DNA of 64,000 bases from Verrucomicrobiia bacterium (GTDB lineage Bacteria > Verrucomicrobiota > Verrucomicrobiia > Limisphaerales > DASXHY01). Under the pieces are notes generated by a model that worked only from the letters and a program-made list of their open reading frames with translations, was not told the DNA's origin and did no database searches. Position 1 is the stretch's first letter. Each line of letters opens with the position of its first letter. Both the position numbers and the translations under genes were made by a program. This document shows positions 6,791 through 60,649 of the stretch, piece after piece. Location of the stretch: assembly GCA_035629175.1 (NCBI GenBank), contig DASPIL010000046.1:1-64000 (forward strand). The letters run 5' to 3'.

Positions 6791-7984
6791 ATGGATCTCG
6801 AGTCGCTCATCGCTTCGGCACAACAACAGGGCGCGAGCGATCTCCATCTCGAAGCGGGTTTTCCACCCGCGCTCCGCATTCGCGGGTCGCTTCGAACAGC
6901 CGGCGAGCCCATCCCCGGGGCAACCCTGCTCGCGTTCGCAAGGGCCTTGATCGGCGATGCCAACTGGCCTGGATTTCTGCAACGCCGTTCCGCTGATTTT
7001 TCACGGAGCATTTCGGGCGCGCGCTGCCGCATCCATGTGCTTCAATCCGCCCGCGGCATCGGCTTTGCGATCCGGCTTCTGTCCGCCGCGCAAGTCACGG
7101 TTGAGCAGCTGAACCTGCATCCCGACCTGAAAAAACTCACGACGCATCAACATGGCCTCATCCTCATCAGCGGACCGACAGGTTCTGGAAAATCGTCGAC
7201 CCTCGCGGCGTTGATCCAGGAAATCAACCTGCGCGACACTCGGCACATCGTCACCATTGAAAGTCCCGTGGAATATCATTTCCGTCCGCGCAAAGCCTAC
7301 ATCCGGCAGCGGGAAGTTGGCCGTGACACGCCGAGCTTCGAACAGGGTTTGCTCGATGCGTTGCGGCAGGATCCTGATGTTGTGATGGTTGGTGAAATGC
7401 GGGATCCGGAAACCATGCGCCTGACATTGAGCGCCTCGGAAACGGGGCACCTGGTTCTTGCGACCGTGCATTCCTCCACGTGCGCGGAGGCGCTGCAGCG
7501 TGTGGCAGGAGCCTTTCCCGCCGAGATCCAGAACGCCGTGTGCGCTCAGCTCGCAGATTGTCTCGTCGCGGTGGTTTCGCAGCGGCTGCATTTCCGTTCC
7601 GACATCCACCTGCGCGTCCCCGAATGCGAGGTCCTGATCGCAACGCACGCTGTGAGGAATTTCATCCGCAATCGCGAGTTTTTCAAAATCATCTCCGCGA
7701 TCGAAACAGGCGCAGACCACGGGATGTGGTCGTTCCAGCGTTACCGACAATGGCTGGACCAGCGCAAACAATGGCATCGCGGCGAAGTCTCTGAAGCGCC
7801 AGAAGCTGACATGCCGGACGTTGCACCGGTTTTAGAATCCGCCTCCGCACCTGCGTCGTTGCCCCCGCCTTCGCCGAAGGTTGTGGAACCTGGCGCCACC
7901 CGGATCGAACCGGCGCGAGGAGGCCGAATTGAAATTGAACCCGAAGAAGGCGGGTTGGAGCGAATCCTCAAAAAACTGGAATGA
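6791..7984 (+). CDS. PilT-like type IV pilus retraction ATPase
   Basis: The 397-residue member of the secretion-ATPase (GspE/PilT) superfamily has Walker A GPTGSGKSS (128-136), the Walker B region DPDVVMVGEMRD (194-205) and an ATVHSSTCAEAL His box. The HAVRNFIRNREFFKIISAIETG segment corresponds to PilT's AIRNLIREGK signature. Such ATPases depolymerise pilin at the inner-membrane base of type IV pili and power twitching. Residues 340-397 form a Pro/Ala/Glu-rich tail beyond the usual PilT length. No other pilus genes are adjacent; instead it sits in a biosynthetic operon and shares an ATGA overlap with the next lipoprotein gene, so a non-motility role is possible. Confidence 0.88.
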   Translation: MDLESLIASAQQQGASDLHLEAGFPPALRIRGSLRTAGEPIPGATLLAFARALIGDANWPGFLQRRSADFSRSISGARCRIHVLQSARGIGFAIRLLSAAQVTVEQLNLHPDLKKLTTHQHGLILISGPTGSGKSSTLAALIQEINLRDTRHIVTIESPVEYHFRPRKAYIRQREVGRDTPSFEQGLLDALRQDPDVVMVGEMRDPETMRLTLSASETGHLVLATVHSSTCAEALQRVAGAFPAEIQNAVCAQLADCLVAVVSQRLHFRSDIHLRVPECEVLIATHAVRNFIRNREFFKIISAIETGADHGMWSFQRYRQWLDQRKQWHRGEVSEAPEADMPDVAPVLESASAPASLPPPSPKVVEPGATRIEPARGGRIEIEPEEGGLERILKKLE

Positions 7985-20695: not shown

Positions 20696-22006
20696 GTGAA
20701 ACTGACAGACCTCCGCGGCATTCTCCAATACATCCCGCAATTCCGGGAAAAGACGTTCATCATCGCGGTCGATGGGGTCATCGTCACGGACGAGAATTTT
20801 GCCAACATTCTCCTCGATGTGGCAGTGCTCCGTTCGTTGAACATCCGCGTCGTGCTCGTTCATGGCGCCTCCGCCCAAATTCGCGCGGCTGCAGAGAAGC
20901 ACAACGTGCGCGCTTCCAACCTCGATGGCTCAGGCATCACGGATCTTCCCACGCTGCAACTCGCAATGGATGCAGCCAACCGCCTCACGCACGAAATCCT
21001 GGAAGGTCTTTCGGCGAACGACCTGCGCGCAGCCTGCACGAACGCAGTCATCGCACACCCGCTGGGCATCATCCAGGGCATTGACCACCTCAACACGGGA
21101 AAGGTGGAGCGCGTCGATACCGAACTGCTGCAAACGCTGTTGAGCCAGGGCATCGTTCCCGTGGTTCCGCCGCTGGGCTTTGATGGCGACGGCAAGACGT
21201 ATCGCGTGAATTCGGACGGCGTCGCCGTGGCCATTGCGGAAGCGCTGAAGGCAACGAAGCTGATATTCATCACTGCGCACGATGGATTGCGGTACAATGA
21301 TTTGTTGATCCGCCAGATGCTCGTGGCGGAGTTGAAGAAGCTTCTCCAGCAGAACACGGCCGGTTTTCCCGCGGAAATCCTTTCCAAGGCGCAACACGCC
21401 GCAGTGGCCTGCACTGCGGGAGTCCAGCGCGTGCACATCATTAACGGACGCGTCGACGAAGGCCTGCTGGCAGAGGTCTTTTCGAACGACGGAATCGGGA
21501 CGCTAATATACGCGAATGAGTACCAGCAAATTCGCCCCGCGAAGAAGAAGGACGTTCGCGCCATTCAACTGCTCACGAAGAAAGCGGTTGAATCGGACGA
21601 GCTGGTGAAGCGCACGCGGGCAGTGATCGAGAAATCGCTCGGCGACTATTATATCTTTGAGATCGATCGCAATCCCGTCGCGTGTGTCGCGCTGCACGTG
21701 TATCCCGAGCACAGCAAAGGGGAACTCGCGTGTCTTTACGTCAATCCTTCACACGAGAACCAGGGAATTGGACGCAAGCTCATCCAGTTCGTCGAGGCCA
21801 AGGCGCGTGAGTTGAACCTCAACGAATTGCTGACGCTTTCGACCCAGGCGTTCACATATTTCCAATCCAAGGGCGGATTTGCGGAAGGAACACGTGACGA
21901 TCTGCCGCCGAGCCGCCGCGACAAGTACGATCAAAGCGGACGAAACTCGAAGGTGCTGGTGAAAAAGCTGCGCGCCACAGCGGCGCCTGTTATCACCGCC
22001 GCCTGA
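20696..22006 (+). CDS. argA: N-acetylglutamate synthase (amino-acid kinase + GNAT fusion)
   Basis: The 436-residue ArgA-type protein makes N-acetyl-L-glutamate from acetyl-CoA and glutamate, the first step of arginine synthesis. An amino-acid-kinase fold domain (about 1-285; VLVHGASAQIRAAAE, GQ-like VPVVPPLGFDGDGKTYRVNSD) binds arginine for feedback control. It precedes a C-terminal GNAT domain (~290-425) with the acetyl-CoA loop NPSHENQGIGRKLIQFVE. The likely start is GTG at 20696, placed just upstream of KLTDLRGILQYIPQFREKTF, which matches the family N-terminus. It converges with yhbY, 22 nt away. Confidence 0.94.
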   Translation: MKLTDLRGILQYIPQFREKTFIIAVDGVIVTDENFANILLDVAVLRSLNIRVVLVHGASAQIRAAAEKHNVRASNLDGSGITDLPTLQLAMDAANRLTHEILEGLSANDLRAACTNAVIAHPLGIIQGIDHLNTGKVERVDTELLQTLLSQGIVPVVPPLGFDGDGKTYRVNSDGVAVAIAEALKATKLIFITAHDGLRYNDLLIRQMLVAELKKLLQQNTAGFPAEILSKAQHAAVACTAGVQRVHIINGRVDEGLLAEVFSNDGIGTLIYANEYQQIRPAKKKDVRAIQLLTKKAVESDELVKRTRAVIEKSLGDYYIFEIDRNPVACVALHVYPEHSKGELACLYVNPSHENQGIGRKLIQFVEAKARELNLNELLTLSTQAFTYFQSKGGFAEGTRDDLPPSRRDKYDQSGRNSKVLVKKLRATAAPVITAA

Positions 22007-22368: not shown

Positions 22369-22523
22369 GGAGCGCCGATTTTCAATCGGCTTCGGGTGTC
22401 CATTTTTCGCAGGGGCGTTCGAATTCGTGAAGGGGTGGCCCTCGTTTTTGGCAGCGGATATCCCTCTCAATCGGGACACGATCGGTTTTCGAATATTGCA
22501 AGCCGGATGCAAATCGGCGTTCC
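22369..22523. repeat. REPIN-like inverted repeat pair
   Basis: This gap of 355 bases (22314-22668) between yhbY and the secreted protein has no gene. A forward unit at 22369-22390 begins GGAGCGCCGATTTTCAATCG. A related unit on the other strand at 22502-22523 reads GGAACGCCGATTTGCATCCG. Each contains an internal GCCGATT/AATCGGC-type arm, and the two are in inverted orientation. The same pattern recurs at 51309-51439 and 59545-59652. Nothing else recognisable lies in the gap apart from the presumed promoter of the next gene. Confidence 0.65.
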
Positions 22524-22668: not shown

Positions 22669-25600
22669 ATGAATTTCGCACGCGCATTCGTTTTCCTCCT
22701 TTTCCTTTCTGTACCTGTGACGGCACAGACCAGCCTCACTCTCACGAACGGAACCACGACTTTTGCTTCGCTCACGAACACGATCGTCCAAATGAGCGGA
22801 CGCAGCGAGTTGTGGCTCACGGCGTCCAACACGCCGCTTTCAACATCATTGATTCACCTCAACTCGCGCGACTCCTGGCTGTTTCTCCCGGGGATAATTC
22901 CATCGGTCGCTGCGTCGAGCTACCTAGGTCAGGTGCGCGTAAACGGGGCGAATGCGGTTGTCGATAACAACGTCCGCGTCATCCAGTATTCAACAGGGTC
23001 CGTCATCATCCCATACCCCTCGAACCTCCAGCCTCTCGAAGTCTTTGCTGGCCCGCATTTTACTGGTGCCTCCCGAACCCTCAGCCCTTACACCGCCTAC
23101 AACTCGGCAAACCTGGGATCCATGAGCCAGGCGATCAGCTCGTTTCGGCTCAAGCGCGGCTACACCGCAACGCTGGCCCAGAACGACAACGGCACAGGGA
23201 TCAGCCGCAATTATGTGGCCCAGGATGGCGACCTGGAGGTGAGCCTTTTACCGTCCGCGCTGGATGACAAAGTGCGTTTCGTCCGCGTGTTTCCATGGCG
23301 CTGGGTGACCAAGAAAGGCGCCTCGGATATTTCGCCCTCCGAACTCAATGCGCATTGGTGGTACAACTGGAGCATCAACGCCAACTCCACACGCGACCGC
23401 GAATACGTGGCGATCAAGCAGCAGCCGAACTGGCCAGACTTGAACCAGAACTGGCAGACACGCGGAATCAACCACCTGCTTGGATACAACGAACCCAACA
23501 ACTCCGTCGAAGACGCCTACGAAAATCTGAACCCGCCGGGATCGGTTGATGACGCTGTCGCGCGTTGGGGCGACCTTCTCGGCACGGGACTGCGAGTCGG
23601 CGCTCCCGCGGTCACGGACGGCGGCCAGGGCTGGATCACGGATTTCCTGAACAAGGCCGACGCCGCTGGCGTGCGGGTGGATTACGTTCCCATTCATTAC
23701 TATCGCAGCTACGGGAACAACGGGGACGCGGCGGGCGCTGCGAATCAGCTCTACAATTTTCTCAAGACAATTTACGACATCGCCAAACGTCCGATCTGGC
23801 TGACCGAGTTCAACAACGGCGCGAACTGGACGGGCGGCGCAGATCCCACCTATGAACAGAATGCGGCAGTGATTCAGGCGATGATCCGAATGATGGACGA
23901 CACTCCCTGGATTGAACGGTATTCCGTTTACAGCCGCGTGGAGTTCGTGCGCCAGACCCATTACGACGAAGGCGGGCTGACCCCGATGGGCACGATGTAT
24001 CGCGCTCACATTGCTCCCTTGTCGCACGTCCAGGCGCTGCCAAACAACGGAACGCGCAGCTTCGCCGAGTTGGGATTCGACGGCAATTCCCTGGACCGTT
24101 CCGGCCACGGCAACAACGCGCTGGTTTCCGGCGGTCCTGTCTACACCAACGGTCCTGCGGGCCAGGCGCTTGTATTCGACGGCGTGAACACGAAGGTCAC
24201 GCTGCCCCAGAATATCGCGAGCAGCAACGCCTTCACCTTTGCCGCCTGGATAAAATGGGACGGCGGCGCAAACTGGCAGCGCATCTTCGACTTCGGGAAC
24301 AGCACGACGCATTACATGTTCCTCACGCCGAGTTCGGGAAGCGGCACGTTGCGGTTTGCGATTCGAAACGGCGGCACGGAGCAAATGGTGCAGGCGCCGG
24401 CGCTTGTCGCGAATCAATGGCAGCACGTCGCAATCACCCTCGCGGGCAACACCGCCCGTCTGTATGTCAACGGCACACAGGTGGGGGTTGCCAGCGGAAT
24501 CTCGAGTTCGCCCGCGAGCTTCAGCCCGCGGATGAATTTTCTCGGGGAGAGCCAGTTTGTTGCCGATCCGCTGTTTTCCGGCGCGATGGACGAAGTCATC
24601 ATTGCCAGCTCAGCGCTCAGCCCTGCACAGATCGCCGCGTTGCAAACCAACCAGCCGCCCCAAATGCTGACCCATTTCGTCGCGGGCGGGAACGCACTCC
24701 AGGGCGGGGCTTACACCAATTGGATTGGCGATCTCGCGATTGATGCCGATCCGAACGACACACTCACCTATGGCAAGGTTATTGGGCCCGCGTGGCTCAA
24801 CGTCTCTCCCAATGGCGCGCTGTCCGGCACGCCAACGGGGGCTGATAACGGCACCAACTACTTCACGATCCGCGTCACGGACAATGCTGGGGCAAGTGCG
24901 TTTGCGGTTCTTTCGATCTCAATGCCTGTGGTCAGCGGCAGCGGCACCTGGATTTCGAACGCAGACGGCTTGTGGAGCGAACCTGGGCGGTGGCAGGGCG
25001 GGTTTATCGCGAATGGTCCCAGCTTCACAGCCGACTTCAGCACGTTGAACATCTTCTCCGACCGCACCGTGAACCTCGACAGTTCGCGCACGATCGGCAC
25101 CCTTCGTTTTGGGGACACCTCGGGTGCTCAAACATGGAATCTCATCACGACCAACGGCAGCGATTTGTCTTTGGATTCAGCAACTGCAAGTGCCGCCTCC
25201 ATTGTGGTGAACCAGGGAACAGCGAACGTTGCGGTCCCGCTCAGTGGCCAGAACGGCCTGGTGAAAGGTGGCACGGGGACGTTGATCCTGAGCGGCGCCA
25301 ACTCCTTTTCGGGAACCCTCACCATTGATTCCGCCAGCACCTCAGTCAATGACGGGATCGTCCGCGCCGCCCATCCTGACGCACTGCAGAGCTTCGGCAG
25401 CATTCTCATCCGCAACAACAACAACGGCAGCTCGACGTTGCAACTGGACGGATCGAGCGGGGATGTCGTGGTTCCGGCGCAGATGACAATCAATTGCCGC
25501 AATAACGCGGTGCCGACGATACAGAATCTCGCGGGCACAAACATCCTTGCGGGTCCGATATCCATCGAAGTCGGCGGCAACATGTTCAACATTCAATCCG

Positions 25601-51308: not shown

Positions 51309-51439
51309 GGAGCGCAGGCTTCAGCCTGTTCAGCACTGTCACATCCCGTGCGTCGGCCTGTTCCCACGTGCCTCTCAGTTCTGATGCTTAAGCGGCACGA
51401 ATGCCGCGCTCCTTTAAGCCGACTGCAAGCCGGTGCTCC
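51309..51439. repeat. REPIN-like inverted repeat cluster
   Basis: The 205-nt gap between htrA and pta holds three units of one repeat. A forward unit at 51309-51328 begins GGAGCGCAGGCTTCAGCCTG. Two reverse units follow, at 51392-51412 (minus strand GGAGCGCGGCATTCGTGCCG) and 51418-51439 (minus strand GGAGCACCGGCTTGCAGTCG). Each unit contains its own short inverted arm and the units face each other. Confidence 0.7.
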
Positions 51440-58980: not shown

Positions 58981-59511
58981 ATGAGCACGCCGTCAGCAAG
59001 AATTTTGGTCAAAGTCGGGGAAAAATGTGCCTGCATCAGGATTTCGGGTCGGGCGAATTTCACGTCGAGCATCGACTTCAAAACGCTCGTCAATGAACTG
59101 CTTCAGAAAGGCTACAATTACTTTGTCCTCGACCTCCGGGAATGCACTCTGATGGACAGCACGTTCCTGGGAGTACTCGCAGGTTTCGGCCTGCGGGTGA
59201 CCGCACCGCAACCGGATCAGCAGACACGCACCATCGAGCTTTATAATCCGAATCCCCGCATCACCGACCTGCTGGAAAATCTCGGTGTATTGCACCTGTT
59301 CCGTTTGCAGCAGGGCGAGGTCTGCCTTCCAGAGCCGACCACCGATCACAATCACTCCCCGGGCGCTCCGTCGCGCGAGGAAGTGACGCAAACCTGCCTT
59401 GAAGCGCATCGAACCTTGATGGACCTCAGCCCCGAAAACGCCGCGCGCTTCAAGGACGTGGCTGCGTTTCTCGCCGAGGACTTGAAGAAGATGAAGGCGA
59501 CCGCCCAGTAG
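58981..59511 (+). CDS. STAS-domain anti-sigma-factor antagonist-like protein
   Basis: The protein has 176 residues with a STAS domain at ~5-110. The conserved loop is LDLRECTLMDSTFLGVLAG, with S60 at the position phosphorylated in SpoIIAA-type antagonists. A ~65-residue C-terminal extension (THNH-like linker then EEVTQTCLEAHRTLMDLSPE) follows. It would switch partners by phosphorylation, but no anti-sigma factor or PP2C phosphatase gene is adjacent. It begins 2 nt after the holA stop. Confidence 0.9.
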   Translation: MSTPSARILVKVGEKCACIRISGRANFTSSIDFKTLVNELLQKGYNYFVLDLRECTLMDSTFLGVLAGFGLRVTAPQPDQQTRTIELYNPNPRITDLLENLGVLHLFRLQQGEVCLPEPTTDHNHSPGAPSREEVTQTCLEAHRTLMDLSPENAARFKDVAAFLAEDLKKMKATAQ

Positions 59512-59544: not shown

Positions 59545-59652
59545 GGAGCGCCGCCTTTCAGCCCGCTTACCGCTCACGGACTGAAAGACGCGTCCTCAAG
59601 CCTGACGGTTGACGCAAGGCTGCAGACTCGAGCAGCTCAAAGCCTGCGCTCC
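59545..59652. repeat. REPIN-like inverted repeat pair
   Basis: A forward unit at 59545-59566 begins GGAGCGCCGCCTTTCAGCCC and a reverse unit at 59632-59652 reads GGAGCGCAGGCTTTGAGCTG on the minus strand. They face each other across ~65 bases, as at 22369 and 51309. The arm AGGCGGCG at 59512-59519, just after the STAS stop, pairs with CGCCGCCT inside the first unit and may act as a terminator-like hairpin. Confidence 0.65.
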
Positions 59653-59688: not shown

Positions 59689-60405
59689 TTACTCTCCGAG
59701 GTTCCGCTTGAGCAGCGCATTCAGCTTTGCTGGTGAAAGAACCGTTACCATGCGGCCTTTCACAGCAATCAGTCTCTGCTCGCGGAACTTTCCCAGCGTG
59801 CGCGAAAACGTTTCGCTGATTGTTCCAAGTTCCGCTGCCAGGACACGCTTGGTCATCGTCAGTTCAATGTTGACCGCGCGATCCGCCTGCGGATTCGGAC
59901 AACGCTTCACCAGCCAATTCGCGAGCCGCGTTTCCACATCCTTTAACGTCAGGTCCTCCAACTGCCCAACGAGCACCCGCAGATGGCTGCTCATGGATCC
60001 CAACATGCGCAACGCAAGTTCAGGCTGGCGCTTGAGCAATTCCAGGATTCCGGCCTTCTGCACGAGCAGCACCTGGCTCGGTTCGATCGCGCGCGCGTCA
60101 GCCGGGTAACCCCGCTCCGACGCAAGCGCCACTTCGGCGAACGAATCGCCCGCGCGAAACACGTGGATCACCTGCTCCTTTCCCGCCGCGTTCACGCGAT
60201 GCACATTGATGGCGCCGCGTTGCACAACGTAAAACCCCACGGCTGCATCACCCTCGTGAAACAGATACTCACCCTTGTCGAGCACCTTGAGACTGGTGAT
60301 GGTTGCAATGTTCTCCAGGTCGCTCGTCGAGAGTCCGGTAAACAACTGGCAACTGCGAAGCGTGTTGATCGTCGCCACCGTTCTGAAGTCAGTGAGCGTG
60401 GCCAT
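59689..60405 (-). CDS. Crp/Fnr-family transcriptional regulator
   Basis: The protein has 238 residues. A cNMP-binding beta-barrel (LFTGLSTSDLENIATITSLK ... GEYLFHEGDAAVGFYVVQRG ... VFRAGDSFAEVAL) is followed by the Crp-type winged helix (AELGTISETFSRTLGKFREQ). Only a few cysteines are present and no N-terminal four-Cys cluster, so it is not an FeS-type FNR sensor; a Dnr/heme or cyclic-nucleotide type is possible. A strong Shine-Dalgarno (GGAGGGAGG) precedes the ATG at 60405. It starts one nt after the DUF2249 stop, hence co-transcribed. Confidence 0.92.
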   Translation of the reverse strand: MATLTDFRTVATINTLRSCQLFTGLSTSDLENIATITSLKVLDKGEYLFHEGDAAVGFYVVQRGAINVHRVNAAGKEQVIHVFRAGDSFAEVALASERGYPADARAIEPSQVLLVQKAGILELLKRQPELALRMLGSMSSHLRVLVGQLEDLTLKDVETRLANWLVKRCPNPQADRAVNIELTMTKRVLAAELGTISETFSRTLGKFREQRLIAVKGRMVTVLSPAKLNALLKRNLGE

Positions 60406-60406
60406 G

Positions 60407-60649
60407 TCAGGATTCCTCCCTCCAAAAATAAACGATCCAGTCGGCGCCGGTTCCCTTTTCCACCTTCGATGCAAATCCTTCGCTTCCGAATTTCTCAACC
60501 AGGGGCGACGGCAAAAAAGGCGCCACGACCATCAGTCCCCTGCCCGCCTCCAGGGCATCCACGCGTTTTCGGATTTCCGGGAAAGGTTCAATGCCGCGAC
60601 CGATCAGGGTGCGAACGTCGAACCGCGTAAAATTCTTCAAGGGCGGCAT
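60407..60649 (-). CDS. DUF2249 domain protein
   Basis: The 80-residue protein of the DUF2249 family has FDVRTLIGRGIEPFPEIRKR, LMVVAPFLPSPLVEKF and a closing GADWIVYFWRE, the pattern of sulfur-carrier-like TusA-fold relatives often found with NO/denitrification genes. It lies directly upstream of the Crp/Fnr gene and is probably in the same transcript, so it may respond to oxygen or nitric oxide. That link is inference from other genomes. Confidence 0.85.
   Translation of the reverse strand: MPPLKNFTRFDVRTLIGRGIEPFPEIRKRVDALEAGRGLMVVAPFLPSPLVEKFGSEGFASKVEKGTGADWIVYFWREES

Follow-up and report, generated by a model that had tools for sequence, protein, structure and literature searches.

A stretch of 64,000 nucleotides from a Verrucomicrobiia bacterium (contig DASPIL010000046.1; hereafter the window) carries short, mostly facing hairpin-like repeats at three intergenic loci, which raises the question of what these elements are and what could have placed them there. 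A sequence-only reading had taken them for REPINs built on one consensus and mobilised in trans by a REP-associated tyrosine transposase (RAYT), none being encoded in the window. Our analysis supports the REPIN identity, to which we assign a probability of about 0.93: the loci are best explained as non-autonomous elements of two inverted REP hairpins with GGAG feet pointing outward, mobilised in trans by RAYTs of the HUH-Y1 type. It also adds what had been missed, namely a second family, the GGAG foot itself and a frameshifted cognate RAYT.

In the window, the motif GGAGCGCNGGCTTTCAG with up to three mismatches is matched six times against 1.4 expected, and 0 of 100 shuffles scored as high. 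Two of the six matches, at 23590 and 33244, and a further one at 6875 are apparently due to chance. All of the previously listed units are present, the coordinates of the reverse ones being inner edges that lie a few bases off (Table 1). The single consensus blends two families, A (22369 and 51415) and B (51309-51412). The element at 22369-22523 lies between a CDS ending at 22006 and a CDS starting at 22669, and its 155 bp is the modal element length genome-wide. The right end of the B-family element differs from the B right-end consensus by four mismatches, and no A-family partner of the adjoining unit at 51415-51439 was found within 400 bp. The third pair, flanked by a STAS-domain gene (ending at 59511) and a convergent Crp-like gene (59689-60498, minus strand), is so strongly degenerate that its assignment to A or B is uncertain. 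Each unit had also been credited with an inverted arm of its own. When folded as single-stranded DNA and compared with shuffles, the hairpins at 22369 (z -3.1) and 51389 (z -2.5) stand out, that at 51309 does so more weakly (z -1.5), whereas shuffles fold as well as those at 22499, 51415, 59545 and 59628, which are therefore regarded as degenerate. A search of the window against Rfam found nothing.

Table 1. REPINs and REP units located in the window.
Feature	Coordinates	Strand	Remarks
A-family REPIN, full-length, 155 bp	22369..22523	- (conserved interior reads on -)	Facing outer feet GGAGC/GGAAC; interior aligns with other copies
REP unit GGAGC-GCCGATT-TTC-AATCGGC-TTC	22369..22393	+	7-bp stem, perfect; dG -6.6, z -3.07
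Degenerate partner REP unit GGAACGCCGATTTGCATCCGGCTTG	22499..22523	-	Pairs with the 22369-22393 unit
B-family REPIN, 104 bp	51309..51412	+	Two unlike REPs: left CTTCAG loop, right ATTCGT loop; units 51309-51332 (+), 51389-51412 (-)
Lone A-family REP unit GGAGCACCGGCTTGCAGTCGGCTTA	51415..51439	-	2 mismatches; adjoins the B-family REPIN at 51309-51412
Degenerate REPIN, 108 bp	59545..59652		Units 59545-59569 (+), 59628-59652 (-)

The survey was then extended to the genome, a 5.4-Mb draft in 108 contigs, where GGAGCGCNGGCTTTCAG with up to two mismatches has 76 matches against 3 for the reversed pattern. As read from its copies, the A unit consists of a GGAGC foot, a GCCGACT stem, a 3-nt loop, AGTCGGC and a TTA tail; the REP architecture in this genome places the GGAG foot 0-1 nt before a stem of 6-8 bp. 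The 25-nt unit GGAGCGCCGACTTNNAGTCGGCTTA, with up to three mismatches, occurs in 49 copies, among them all three window loci, against 0 for the reversed-pattern control, and is thus far from a mere handful. Layout was analysed for 51 strong units in 40 sequence stretches, with partners sought within 400 bp; the stretches were picked for holding a match, a choice that leaves orientation unbiased. Of 35 facing partner entries, 33 measure 108-159 bp from outer edge to outer edge. With double counts removed there are 27 distinct facing pairs, spanning 108-159 bp and mostly near 151-155 bp, compared with a single divergent partner and two tandem ones, these three all close to the score threshold, so that both orientation and length are biased and the proposed excess of inverted pairs is borne out. 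Aligned A copies have a common interior, CGATGATCGAAGAACCGATCG...AATTGAGCGTTAAGC, which indicates that the mobile unit is an oriented element of ~155 bp. Scanning for hairpins with arbitrary heads proved too noisy to serve as the sole test: permuted heads gave about equal raw counts, though fewer strong stems.

A profile search for PF01797 (Y1 transposase) retrieved five genes, all of them outside the contig that holds the window, in agreement with the absence of a RAYT from the window and with the expectation of one elsewhere. Four of the five are flanked by their own REPs. The C69 gene is flanked by an A REP in REPIN layout (GGAGCGCCGACTTGGAGTCGGCTTA), and the C37 gene by REPs with a GGAG foot (GGAGCGCGGACAGCCTTGTCCGC); both genes are frameshifted, their tblastn matches being split between two frames. 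The C67 gene has flanking REPs of the form GTAGCG(G/T)CAGGC..., that is, with a GTAG/GTGG foot, and this type is present in 46 copies against 0 in the control. The C42 gene (L013, G000 C42:32910-33212) has a REP family of its own with the foot GGTGTCC (GGTGTCCACCCTTTAGGGTGT). HUH (PNHxH) and Y (YIExNP) motifs were recognised in the RAYTs; the NCBIfam model NF047646 (REP_Tyr_transpos) is matched above cutoff by a relative (L095) and just below it by the C42 and C67 genes, and a relative's RAYT aligns with E. coli TnpAREP (4ER8). The RAYT-REP association is kept in relatives, and among other Verrucomicrobiota the RAYT L176 is flanked by similar REPs of A type. In another genome of the same order (G013), PF01797 is matched 30 times, in many cases partially. 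Classical Y1 transposases of this order (L145-L172) have flanking hairpins with other feet (ATAG, GGTAG), which suggests that more tagged families exist.

B-family elements measure ~105-110 bp and combine two unlike REPs, a left CTTCAG-loop unit and a right unit, GGAGCGCGGCGTTCACGCCGCTTCA, which has 24 genome copies against 0 in the control. REPs resembling the B pair flank RAYTs in other Verrucomicrobiota (L097, L179 and L184), and no B-family RAYT was found in the assembly; judged from these sequence comparisons, the B family looks like an orphan in this genome. As the sequence is a 108-contig draft, the assembly could lack an existing B-family RAYT, and errors in it could account for the frameshifts in the C69 and C37 genes.

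We infer that RAYTs cleaved and mobilised these REPINs, probably by the following route. The REP hairpin would become exposed as single-stranded DNA, and a RAYT would bind it together with its 5' tetranucleotide foot, cut close to the hairpin at a CT dinucleotide (one is present at the stem's 3' edge, ...GGCTTA) and copy or move the element into intergenic sites. An empty-site comparison with genomes of the same order, none of them of the same genus or family, found only the coding flanks in common. With a frameshift in the A-family RAYT (C69) and no B-family RAYT in the assembly, the copies in the window are most probably relics in decay. The same state of the GGAG-family RAYTs, broken or absent in the assembly while copies persist, would also suit domestication of the repeats after RAYT loss as putative protein-binding or chromosome-organising sites; we consider this improbable, as several copies are degrading, which is unexpected under strong constraint.

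Convergence among ordinary stem-loops, acting as transcription terminators or stabilising mRNA, might also have produced such loci, as their intergenic location, the third between convergent genes, would allow; the specific foot, loop and tail sequences, the facing spacing of ~155 bp with a conserved interior, the absence of a T-run and the matching copies beside RAYT genes make this very unlikely. MITEs derived from a DDE transposon, the two hairpins serving as terminal inverted repeats, would share the inverted ends, the ~155-bp length and the conserved interior, but have just as slight a chance, since both ends are hairpins in their own right and carry a tetranucleotide foot, REP units also occur singly, and the genes found to have matching repeats at their flanks encode Y1 transposases.

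Under the REPIN reading, the foot is unusual, as the A, B and C37 families all have GGAG instead of the canonical GTAG/GTGG. Relatives of the C37 RAYT with flanking GGAG REPs are found in Verrucomicrobiota, in one Chloroflexota MAG and in beta- and gammaproteobacteria. A tree of 39 RAYTs contains a split with 98/98 support, one side of which has mostly GTAG/GTGG feet, while on the other side 17 of 17 script-assigned feet are GGAG; the script was confined to the form G[GT][AG]G and could therefore miss other feet. Reading by hand also revealed GGAGCGC hairpins at several rows that the script had scored as lacking a foot. The GGAG label is not strictly that of one clade, given that L192 has a GGAG foot yet is nested on the GTAG side. 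Residue 101 (numbered by alignment to 4ER8), which has been discussed among the GTAG-interacting residues of TnpAREP (PMC6006769), is His in 8 of the 9 GTAG/GTGG rows, whereas every GGAG row has Arg, Thr or Cys there, Arg in the case of L192. L193, on the GTAG side, has His and, by eye, a GT- foot. Our hypothesis, post hoc and drawn from the sequences of few lineages, is that the second base of the foot (T or G) may track RAYT residue 101 (His or Arg/Thr). The REP literature searched, including Di Nocera 2013 (PMC3733652), makes no mention of a GGAG tag.

The REP feet also appear to host a second type of mobile element. One group II intron has nine five-prime ends in the genome. They lie at C46:66565-66690, on the window's contig ~2.6 kb past its end, and at C107, C85, C69, C67, C66, C33, C74 and C70. 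Each of the nine directly follows a hairpin of REP type and falls within the tetranucleotide foot, the junction reading ...GCTA|GTGCG (once GCCA|). Seven of the nine sites pass a strict perfect-stem test, compared with 84 of 20,700 random positions; the stems of the remaining two are imperfect and were judged by eye. The hosts are mostly C67-type REPs, with one A-family REP (C69) and one further GTAG-type hairpin (C85). At the nine three-prime ends the next base is C, assuming that the intron ends in ...CTAT, which agrees with a CTA|C insertion site, complementary to GTAG. In another genus (G037), three divergent introns are located at GCGCTC|GTGCG after a hairpin, corresponding to a GGAG-type foot. 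Group IIC introns insert 3' of hairpins, usually T-run terminators, and encode a class C protein with reverse transcriptase and maturase but without endonuclease. The intron-encoded protein here matches the group II RT/maturase model TIGR04416, with 7uim, 5hhl/5hhj and 6ar1 (GsI-IIC RT) as its best PDB matches, and no Rfam match was obtained for the intron RNA domains. The intron seems group IIC-like, judged by its hairpin-adjacent site and its protein matches. The genome also has another, distantly related intron that apparently follows a T-run terminator. A literature search, with subscription papers mostly outside its coverage, found no description of REP-targeted group II introns.

Taken together, we lean towards the view that REP feet serve two unrelated mobile systems as a common hairpin address. 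A RAYT clade spread over several phyla would be guided by GGAG rather than GT-G, with residue 101 changed from His to Arg/Thr, and a lineage of IIC-like introns would home to REP feet (CTA|C here, CTC| in the other genus), so that REPs would join terminators and attC as a third kind of hairpin target. The natural covariation of foot base 2 with residue 101, which includes one apparent independent switch, would make guide-sequence recognition by domesticated Y1 transposases testable. REPIN biology would extend to the GGAG foot, and the REP feet point to a new class of landing sites for group IIC-like introns, which bears on how introns spread without gene disruption.

REPINs or BIMEs with an associated RAYT (TnpAREP) have been described in Pseudomonas, E. 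coli and Stenotrophomonas (Bertels & Rainey 2011, PMC3116915; Nunvar 2010, PMC2817692; PMC8266576), and E. coli TnpAREP cleaves at CT beside GTAG-tagged REPs (PMC8266576). The present elements agree with these in their two inverted REP hairpins with outward feet, intergenic location, tens of copies and a RAYT flanked by its cognate REP; they differ in having GGAG in place of GTAG, A elements of ~155 bp with a conserved interior, and cognate RAYTs that are broken or absent. GTAG- and CGTC-tagged palindromic repeats, which include those of the Verrucomicrobium O. terrae (Di Nocera 2013, PMC3733652), are likewise tagged stem-loops in Verrucomicrobia, whereas the tag here is GGAG. Terminators and attC hairpins are known as sites behind which group IIC introns insert (review, PMC4424553). 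The intron described above also inserts just past a DNA hairpin, and IIC enzymes, GsI-IIC RT for one, are among the nearest solved relatives of its protein; in contrast to those introns, its hairpin is a REP and its junction falls within the tetranucleotide foot.
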